From: Thermoleptolyngbya sichuanensis A183 | Lineage (GTDB): Bacteria; Cyanobacteriota; Cyanobacteriia; Elainellales; Elainellaceae | Direction of reading: 5' to 3' | NCBI RefSeq assembly: GCF_013177315.1 | Contig: NZ_CP053661.1 | Span: forward strand, 3,782,001 to 3,846,000 | Length of the DNA: 64,000 bases | In this document: positions 9,450 to 61,734 of the stretch, piece after piece | Layout: every line of letters begins with the position of its first letter | Position numbering within the stretch: position 1 is the stretch's first letter | The notes under the pieces: model-generated | The model's input: only the letters and a program-made list of their open reading frames with translations | Databases searched by the model: none | What the model was told of the DNA's origin: nothing | Translations under genes and position numbers: made by a program

Positions 9450-9462
9450 TTGGAATTCGTAC

Positions 9463-9550
9463 GGACTTACGCACTTGCGATAAGTTTGCTGGGTTTTGGA
9501 CGATTTCTCGCGGGCTGTGCCCGCGAGAAATCGTCCAACTGCGTGAGTCC
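9463..9550. repeat. Dispersed hairpin repeat, family B, copy 1
   Basis: Outer inverted ends GGACTTACGCAC and GCGTGAGTCC enclose a long stem: GGACGATTTCTCGCGGGC pairs with GCCCGCGAGAAATCGTCC around a 3-base loop. It sits between two convergent genes (CBS-CP12 and the kinase), so its hairpin could also act as a shared terminator. Other good copies are at 16476, 30872, 46771 and 61554. Confidence 0.85.
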
Positions 9551-9560
9551 TACCAAAATC

Positions 9561-16121: not shown

Positions 16122-16475
16122 ATCATCTGCCCTGTCCAATAGGCTTTACAGCATCTACCCCCGCCACTCAGCATTTCTTTGCAGTTCGCTCTTTGGGGAA
16201 TGTGCGAGCGCCAGCATAAAGCATCAAAGCCTATGAAATGGTGTGTTACGGCTACGGCCTAACAGCACCCTGCGATGCGCCTATAGTGTGCTTAGAGTGC
16301 GCCTAGAGTGCGATGTATTATCGCCTACGCACTAATCGCCTCAGCACTAATCGCCTACGCAGTGAATCTGCGATCGCACGCTGCTGTTTCTATATAACCC
16401 CAGGTGGCTTGCGGAATCTGCATTTACAAGTGGGTCTGTTTCAAAAGTTGATTTTTAGGCCAGGTTTTTCAATGC
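16122..16475. other. Intergenic DNA with short direct repeats
   Basis: No gene recognised. Bases 16290-16365 contain several near-repeats: AGTGTGCTTAGAGTGCGCCT followed by AGAGTGCGATG, and ATCGCCTACGCACTA alternating with ATCGCCTCAGCACTA. They look like local slippage products. A reading frame running through here into the family B repeat is not credible as a gene. Confidence 0.45.
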
Positions 16476-16568
16476 TAGGACTTACGCAGTTGGACGATTT
16501 CTCACGGGCTGTGCCCGTGAGAAATCGTCCAAAACCTGGAAAATTTCATTTCAAGTGCGTAAGTCCTA
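16476..16568. repeat. Dispersed hairpin repeat, family B, copy 3
   Basis: Perfect outer inverted repeat TAGGACTTACGCA / TGCGTAAGTCCTA. The stem GGACGATTTCTCACGGGC pairs fully with GCCCGTGAGAAATCGTCC. Relative to copy 1, one G-to-A change in the left arm is matched by C-to-T in the right arm. It is inverted relative to copies at 9463, 30872 and 61554. Confidence 0.85.
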
Positions 16569-16713
16569 AATGCATTAATGTAGTCCAGAAACAACCCAGG
16601 ATTCGGAAATCTCTCCTGGGAAATTCGAGCTTTCCATCTGGGCTTGGTATGATCCGCATTATCACAATAAAGGAGTGGATTCGCAGAAATCCCGATTGTT
16701 TAGGGAGACAGCC

Positions 16714-17112
16714 ATGAATCAAAACGGCTATGGGGGGGTGCGGTTTACCCTGTCAGGACTGGGGTTTTGGATAACCTTGCTGGCGATCGCCTGGCTGCTG
16801 GGCATGGTGGGGCTGGGCTGGCTGGTGAAGTCTTTTATCGTGCTGATTGGGCTGCTGATTCTAACGCCCGTGATTGCCTTTTTTGCCTTTCGCTGGTGGC
16901 TCAGCCGCAACCTAGTAGAAGCCCCCTGCCCCGTCTGCGACACTCGCTCCGCAGGCATCAACGGCACCCAACTCCGCTGCCCCAACTGCGGCGAGGCGCT
17001 GCGGGTCGAAAAAGGCGCATTCTATCGCCTCACGCCACCGGGCACGATTGATATACAGGCCGTGGAGATCGAGGCTCGCCCCATTGAAGAAGCAAAGGAT
17101 GAGACGGGCTAG
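16714..17112 (+). CDS. Membrane protein with C-terminal four-cysteine zinc-ribbon-like motif
   Basis: 132 residues. Two adjacent hydrophobic segments lie at about 18-35 and 40-62 (WLLGMVGLGWLVKSFIVLIG and LLILTPVIAFFAFRWW). A compact motif CPVCDT...RCPNCGEAL at about 76-100 has four cysteines in two CxxC pairs, fitting a rubredoxin/zinc-ribbon knuckle. A short acidic tail follows. ATG 16714 has GGGAGA about 7 bases upstream; an in-frame start at 16675 lacks this. No function can be assigned; a membrane-anchored metal knuckle is what the sequence shows. Confidence 0.75.
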   Translation: MNQNGYGGVRFTLSGLGFWITLLAIAWLLGMVGLGWLVKSFIVLIGLLILTPVIAFFAFRWWLSRNLVEAPCPVCDTRSAGINGTQLRCPNCGEALRVEKGAFYRLTPPGTIDIQAVEIEARPIEEAKDETG

Positions 17113-30871: not shown

Positions 30872-30962
30872 CAGAACTTACGCACTTGCGATAGGCTTTC
30901 TGGATTTTGGATAATTTTTCGCGGGCGCAGCCCGCGAAAAATTATCCAACTGCGTAAGTCCT
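30872..30962. repeat. Dispersed hairpin repeat, family B, copy 4
   Basis: Ends AGAACTTACGCAC / TGCGTAAGTCCT. The stem GGATAATTTTTCGCGGGC pairs perfectly with GCCCGCGAAAAATTATCC. Compared with copy 1 it has three left-arm changes (C to T, G to A, C to T), each matched by the complementary change in the right arm. Confidence 0.85.
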
Positions 30963-31165
30963 AAAATTCATAAATCAGTAGGTTAACCATAAAACACCCT
31001 GCCCTTTTGCGCTATCCAGAAAAACAAAAGATTTTTGGGAAATCGAGCTGCCCCGCAGAGCCAGCCTGCCTTGACCGCACCGGATTCATACTCGCTAGCA
31101 TTTTTTGCCAACTGCTGCAAATAAACCTGCCCGCAGCGCAAACCGCCCCCATCATAGCGCCCCGC

Positions 31166-46770: not shown

Positions 46771-46861
46771 TAGGACTTACGCAGTTGGACAATTTCTCGC
46801 GGGCTGCGCCCGCGAGAAATTGTCCAAAACCCAAAGAATATATCGCAAGTGCGTAAGTTCT
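46771..46861. repeat. Dispersed hairpin repeat, family B, copy 5
   Basis: Ends TAGGACTTACGCAG / AGTGCGTAAGTTCT. The stem GGACAATTTCTCGCGGGC pairs fully with GCCCGCGAGAAATTGTCC around a short loop. One left-arm G-to-A change relative to copy 1 is matched by C-to-T on the right. Same orientation as copy 3. Confidence 0.85.
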
Positions 46862-47023
46862 GTCGATTTTGGATTTGCGATTTTGGGTTGCCCAATCAGC
46901 CTTTGCGGGGCTTTCAGCAACTCTGTTCGCAGCGCCTCTGAGGAAGATTGACATTCCCCTCCACTGGTTTTCCAAACTTTTTTCAAACCCAACCCCTTAC
47001 CCCTATAGCGTGGGGACGCTTCT

Positions 47024-61516: not shown

Positions 61517-61553
61517 ATTTACCGGTAGATTCACGATCAACGCTAACCAGAAC

Positions 61554-61644
61554 AGGACTTACGCACTTGCGATGAGTTTTTTGAGTTTTGGACGATTTCT
61601 CATGGGCTGCACCCGCGAGAAATCGTCCAACTACGTAAGTCCTA
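61554..61644. repeat. Dispersed hairpin repeat, family B, copy 6
   Basis: Ends AGGACTTACGCAC / TACGTAAGTCCT. The stem GGACGATTTCTCATGGGC pairs with ACCCGCGAGAAATCGTCC with one A-C mismatch and one wobble, the least tidy of the good copies. It lies 38 bases upstream of the kinase start on that gene's strand. Confidence 0.8.
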
Positions 61645-61699: not shown

Positions 61700-61734
61700 A
61701 CCCTGCGCCGCCCGCTGCGCGGGCGGCGCAGGGT
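61700..61734. repeat. Perfect GC-rich 15-bp inverted repeat
   Basis: ACCCTGCGCCGCCCG pairs with CGGGCGGCGCAGGGT around a CTGCG loop, with no mismatch. It lies in the 570-base gap between the kinase and the Uma2 gene. A T-run exists only some 12 bases beyond the stem on the minus strand, so it is not a standard terminator. The rest of the gap (61735-62089) holds no gene. Confidence 0.75.

Follow-up and report, generated by a model that had tools for sequence, protein, structure and literature searches.

A dispersed hairpin repeat of Thermoleptolyngbya sichuanensis as a putative IS701-type MITE with covarying stem arms and a loop found in both orientations

Family B is a short dispersed hairpin repeat which, judged by its ends and target duplications, is a MITE of the IS701 type (NF049921), about 92 bp long. 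The covariation between the two arms of its stem is real. We think it probable that this is an element moved by an IS701 transposase, the arms of which exchange or template each other and so flip the loop and mimic compensation. Covariation in dispersed hairpins is often taken as a sign of conserved RNA; in family B, exchange between DNA arms may suffice to produce it, since the loop occurs inverted, wobble pairs are not favoured and many stems hold uncompensated changes. The analysis started from a window of 64,000 nucleotides (G000:C1:3782001-3846000) in the 5.53-Mb single-contig genome of T. sichuanensis A183, here called G000, and was extended to the whole of that genome and to other genomes.

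All of the five dispersed copies that a sequence-only reading had described in the window are present, in both orientations (two on one strand and three on the other). They share one layout, in which TAGGACTTACGCA and a G are followed by a stem of 20 bp closed by a 3-nt loop, then by some 22 nt of linker and by TGCGTAAGTCCTA or its -G variant; the inverted ends are 13 bp long, and each copy carries few substitutions. The copy at 16476-16568 (plus strand, target duplication (TSD) AATGC) has its left terminal inverted repeat (TIR), TAGGACTTACGCA, at 16476-16488, a plus-strand hairpin of 20 bp at 16490-16532 (arms 16490-16509 and 16513-16532, loop TGT), and its right TIR at 16556-16568 on the minus strand, which reads TGCGTAAGTCCTA on the plus strand. 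The stem, given as 18 bp in the first reading, measures 20 bp. Folded as DNA, this copy reaches -38.8 kcal/mol (z -13), and none of 200 shuffles did as well. The other plus-strand copy, at 46771-46862, has the stem TTGGACAATTTCTCGCGGGC, the loop TGC, one compensated pair and the TSD TCGAT. On the minus strand, the copy at 9461-9552 has the stem TTGGACGATTTCTCGCGGGC with all pairs Watson-Crick and the loop ACA, and is the one exception to the exact 5-bp TSD seen in four of the five; the copy at 30872-30963 has the stem TTGGATAATTTTTCGCGGGC, the loop TGC, three compensated pairs and the TSD AAATT; and the copy at 61553-61644 has the loop GCA and the TSD CAGAA. Four of these stems are fully paired, in agreement with the matched arm changes first noticed in four copies, while the single mismatch attributed to the last copy becomes three non-Watson-Crick pairs (two G.T and one C.A), and is one only if G.T is counted as paired. 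All five copies are intergenic, flanked by genes with Pfam matches. A perfect 16-bp hairpin of unrelated sequence lies at 61700-61734, 55 bp past the copy at 61553-61644.

Over the whole of G000 the end motif, with at most one mismatch, has 459 matches and the reversed motif 89, and exact ends are paired 78 times against 0 for the reversed control. The 121 distinct copies gathered with their flanks are about two-thirds of the estimated total, some 60 more being estimated from the end-motif counts; the sample was drawn from the first 100 matches listed for the single-end and for the paired-end pattern, and is biased toward copies in which one end or both are exact. None carries a transposase gene, and the length from outer A to outer A is 90-91 nt in 107 of the 121. 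An exact 5-bp TSD lies one base outside the outer-A core in 71 of the 121 (control mean 0.95); among other TSD lengths and offsets in the same copies, none stands out except the inner parts of this same 5-bp duplication. The copies are products of transposition.

In other genomes, elements of 1.05-1.45 kb that belong to the IS701 family (NF049921) have these same ends, AGGACTTACGCA. In a Dehalococcoidia MAG, an open frame of 335 aa has such an end on either side, exact on one and with one mismatch on the other; its transposase scores 390 bits against NF049921, for which the cut-off is 250, and all seven transposases tested (this one and six more) exceed that 250-bit cut-off, at 363-414 bits. 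Of 22 genomes searched with the protein, 10 have relatives of the Dehalococcoidia transposase, the MAG that it comes from among them. The parent set comprises the 14 transposase-matching elements of 1.05-1.45 kb for which both ends and both flanks were available: the ends AGGACTTACGCA are exact on both sides in ten of them and carry one or two mismatches in the other four, an exact 5-bp TSD is present in seven, and several have broken open frames. A contig end cuts one further element (L375), and another Dehalococcoidia copy (L384) is interrupted. Genome G018, whose cyanobacterial family is that of G000, carries both such an insertion sequence (L376, with TTCCA as its TSD) and, at L064, a related MITE; the nearest two of the insertion sequences, L365 and L376, start with TAGGACTTACGCAGTTGGA, and their first 19 bases match the consensus of the T. 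sichuanensis MITE. The ends YAGGACTTACGCA and the 5-bp TSD are thus common to family B and the NF049921 subgroup of IS701, from which family B differs in being a MITE without a transposase gene and in showing no likeness past the ends, as judged by eye only. Because ends, TSD and transposase family agree, we assign family B to the IS701 group, and the earlier suggestion of an inverted-end transposable element is borne out. An IS701 transposase probably recognises the ends of family B and mobilises it in trans. A transposase with the same ends, which had also been called for, was found in other genomes; in G000 one protein query with the Dehalococcoidia transposase gave 0 matches, and no IS701 element of such kind was found there. 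The assignment gives a very widespread MITE its parent family.

How widespread it is can be seen from the 12-bp ends, which lie 74-104 bp apart in at least 114 stretches in other genomes. Among the loci listed, 87 are from Cyanobacteriota, 14 from Pseudomonadota, 7 from Poribacteria, 4 from Chloroflexota, and one each from Thermodesulfobacteriota and Daviesbacteria, and 79 of the 118 elements within them have an exact 5-bp TSD. Other cyanobacteria with the element include the MAG J069 (L105, L159). Plasmids gave no match to the T. sichuanensis element; the Pseudanabaena element matches one Pseudanabaena plasmid. A 15-base end pattern found 66 stretches in viral contigs, close to the 65 roughly estimated for chance; two elements there have paired ends. 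Several further observations concern these other genomes. Each of G061, G063, G150, G153 and G154 (from Nostoc, Pseudanabaena and Poribacteria, among others) has 214-374 occurrences of the 12-bp end and 0-4 of the reversed motif. The lengths of the elements (L097-L210) fall into classes, with 76 of the 118 at 89-92 bp, 20 at 99-103 and 5 at 93-98, as if set by helical turns, a pattern confounded by relatedness and by the search range of 74-104. A 100-101-bp element on three contigs of a MAG labelled Klebsiella pneumoniae (L113, L130, L151) is much like those of Undibacterium loci, and the label may be wrong. On the viral contigs L313:3401-4822, L317:391-1812 and L353:1379-2793, about 1.42 kb lies between similar ends (one mismatch), with open frames inside in L313.

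For the stem, pair counts use 114 of the 121 copies, the seven with stem indels being dropped. Their 2280 pair cells comprise 2018 of consensus type, 75 other Watson-Crick pairs, 73 G.T, 79 A.C and 35 others. Were the arms independent, 20.35 compensated cells would be expected instead of 75; leaving out pairs 6 and 7, the two most variable, gives 23 against 5.52, and sliding the partner by one to three positions drops the compensated cells to 1-5. The first impression of mostly compensated stem changes therefore extends, as an excess above chance, to the wider sample. The compensated states require at least 47 changes on a tree of ends and linker, a rough figure from a short alignment. Among 15 pairs of T. 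sichuanensis copies that differ at two non-loop sites, three differ at both sides of one stem pair. Other genera keep the geometry of the stem with a changed sequence: relative to the T. sichuanensis consensus, 4-6 pairs differ in the G016 stems (4-5 of these Watson-Crick), eight in G018 (four Watson-Crick), seven in G022 (five) and three in G013 (one). The further claim that the fold itself is kept from copy to copy finds no such support. The stem is a perfect, fully Watson-Crick palindrome in 46 of the 114 copies, and the remaining 68 have at least one non-Watson-Crick position.

The loop occurs in both orientations. The 114 copies have the loops GCA (49), TGC (46), TGT (6), ACA (6) and others (7), each of the four named loops being about as frequent as its reverse complement, and two GCA copies (L407 and L418) equal a TGC copy (L420) at every position outside the loop. 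On trees built from short alignments, loop orientation carries no tree signal: it takes 30 changes against 26.8 +- 2.0 when shuffled on an 84-copy tree with the loop left out, and 30 against 26.0 +- 2.3 on a tree without stem and loop. A linker site does carry signal (14 changes against 27.7 shuffled), a second linker site does not (9 against 8.8), and stem pair 7 does (19 against 25.8), which suggests that templating between arms would proceed more slowly than loop flipping. A pattern that ignores the loop has 127 matches in the congener G001, and the loops of the 70 exact matches among them are TGC 34, GCA 25, TAC 6, TGT 3, GTA 1 and ACA 1; G001 copies picked with a TGC-loop query had suggested no flips, whereas the loop-blind pattern showed them. 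Pseudanabaena, with an unrelated stem, offers a further case in 40 copies scored out of 158 candidates that had been picked with an AAA-loop query: their loops are GAA in 21, TTC in 13 and AAA in 6, and among 82 pairs with no other difference the loops are inverted in 33, the same in 44 and of other kinds in 5. The same 40 copies contain two compensated double changes (L476, L494) against six single-arm changes, where by our own estimate independent mutation at such a rate should produce well below one double. Five stems were read in G016 (two further loci, L063 and L080, lie outside the geometry), and all have the loop in one orientation with no flip, a result that stands against universal flipping.

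Palindromes are difficult for short-read assemblers, and the comparison uses assemblies; the G001 assembly, moreover, is fragmented into about 630 contigs. The flips might accordingly be assembly or library artefacts, in which case what is real would come down to the MITE and its compensated pairs. We regard this as very unlikely, because the same pattern appears in a single-contig genome and in two other assemblies, the arms are short (18-20 bp), and typical reads are longer than the whole hairpin, which measures 43 nt.

If the flips are real, loop inversion means that the arms must exchange strands or be copied from one another. Such a process can also make one arm match the other, so that selection may not be needed for the apparent compensation. 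Arm exchange or gene conversion had been named beforehand as a possible cause, and the loop in both orientations, devoid of tree signal, speaks in its favour. The preferred mechanism would run as follows. An IS701-family DDE transposase would act in trans, recognise the ends YAGGACTTACGCA and duplicate 5 bp of the target. During replication or repair, the arms of the off-centre 20-bp hairpin would exchange strands or template each other, perhaps by template switching at the extruded hairpin; a similar process is template switching at quasipalindromes. Exchange of the arms would invert the 3-nt loop, and a new base in one arm, once copied onto the other, would appear as compensation that owes nothing to selection on RNA. 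Uncompensated changes in many stems would be expected if resident copies were little constrained. Flips between copies could also arise during transposition rather than in place. The copies of family B offer a collection on which template switching at bacterial palindromes can readily be tested.

That the hairpin is instead a functional RNA (regulatory, an mRNA stabiliser or a terminator), selected at its resident sites, was suggested by the sequence-only reading and would agree with the stable fold (z -13) and with the excess of compensated pairs over independence; we consider it highly improbable on several grounds. RNA selection is expected to spare G.U and not A.C, yet G.T is not favoured over A.C (73 against 79; one-sided binomial 0.34), a symmetry that loses force as a test, since flipping converts G.T to A.C. 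There is a small edge to G.T in the fully paired stems, which number 63 of 114 with G.T allowed and 56 of 114 with A.C allowed instead; even so, 51 of the 114 copies are mismatched with G.T allowed. Single-arm changes fall alike on the left (86) and right (99) arms, and roughly half of the copies have the loop inverted. No GC-rich stem followed by a T run was found on either strand of 16300-16750, around the one copy scanned, and Rfam gave no match above the gathering score at the copies, its sole match in the window being a tRNA. The copies at 30872-30963 and 61553-61644 sit between divergently arranged genes, where a terminator role makes little sense. The stem has nearly as many rare variants as the linker (per site, 0.0048 and 0.0071 in the stem and 0.0076 in the linker), being nominally a little lower at three of four cut-offs. 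Stem mismatches rise weakly with other decay (Spearman 0.18, p 0.10), and an exact TSD is equally common with perfect (28/46) and imperfect (41/68) stems, so that these data give no support to the idea that imperfect stems are older.

Selection could act in the mobile lineage rather than at resident sites, if only paired copies transpose well, for example because a DNA hairpin brings the ends together; rare double mutants would then spread, and the flips would be a side effect. This is rather unlikely in our judgement. Selection confined to the mobile lineage would also yield perfect copies, and it would fit the uniform length of 90-91 nt in 107 of the 121 copies as well as the geometry of 13 + 20 + 3 + 20 nt kept with changed stems in G013, G018, G022 and five of seven G016 loci. 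A hairpin is significant (p <=0.02, 60 shuffles) in 13 of 28 interior families tested by one representative each, and in 12 of those 13 its distances to the two ends differ by at least 8 nt, a figure without a chance control for position. On the other hand, 15 of the 28 representatives have no significant hairpin and yet have the same ends and a similar length range, with the proviso that the test used the first member of each family, and that in the largest family (35 members) the first has no hairpin and L119 has a strong one. The two compensated doubles of Pseudanabaena also count against it, since they occur in copies that otherwise equal the common type or nearly so, which would leave mutation and then selection little time to act. 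The same 13 of 28 families, 12 of the 13 off-centre, argue against a purely passive palindrome and lead to a bolder proposal, which we hold to be doubtful: that the hairpin is a working part of IS701 MITEs across phyla, a palindrome repeatedly acquired near one end of a ~90-bp element, with each round of mobility through the extruded hairpin flipping the loop, re-copying an arm and repairing the palindrome.

Single-stranded transposition, which had also been proposed, is out of keeping with the 5-bp TSDs and the DDE-type IS701 ends. It is extremely unlikely that family B is a REPIN or an IS200/IS605-type single-stranded element moved by an HUH or RAYT transposase: REPINs are not known to make target duplications, and exact 5-bp TSDs at a fixed offset contradict this main prediction; the ends in common with DDE-type IS701 elements also count against it. 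REPINs resemble family B as mobile hairpins of high copy number with compensatory changes (PMC3116915), and are unlike it in their RAYT transposase and in the conserved 16-mers at their ends.

Among other known systems, the nearest likeness to the IS701-type MITE described here is with other MITEs of bacterial insertion sequences, such as Nezha, reported from cyanobacteria, and the type II MITEs of Anabaena sp. 90, which are likewise short, non-coding and of high copy number, with TIRs, a TSD and a stem-loop. Family B is unlike them in having a parent assigned to IS701 (NF049921), a 5-bp TSD, a length of about 92 bp and a hairpin interior found in both orientations; for the Anabaena sp. 90 MITEs, no parent insertion sequence is assigned (PMC3542288). 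The flipping of the loop recalls the minute hairpin inversions of chloroplasts, in which the loop between inverted repeats likewise takes both orientations and which are described in PMC2903610, a paper citing Kelchner and Wendel 1996, as highly homoplasious. Those inversions affect single chromosomal sites, whereas family B is mobile, has about a hundred replicate copies and shows co-changes in the stem too. The dispersed repeats SDR4-6 of Nostoc, which Elhai and co-workers are said to have described in 2008, reportedly have compensatory mutations as family B does, and are shorter (21-27 nt) and without insertion-sequence TIRs. In the open-licence literature searched, TAGGACTTACGCA was not found; GGACTTACGCA appears in literature on Vibrio.

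Three other candidate parents were rejected. For IS1634, the DUF4277 domain was not found in G000, and the loci of other genomes are without these ends; for the ISNCY model there were weak matches only, none above its cut-off; and an IS4-like element of G000 (L084) has ends of its own, CCTGACTGCCTGACAC. This last element has six copies in G000 with an open frame of 404 aa, and twice adjoins a family B end (L084/L226 and L262; G000:C1 near 1730450 and 2561190), as if, judged from the adjoining side of the junctions, it had inserted into a family B MITE.
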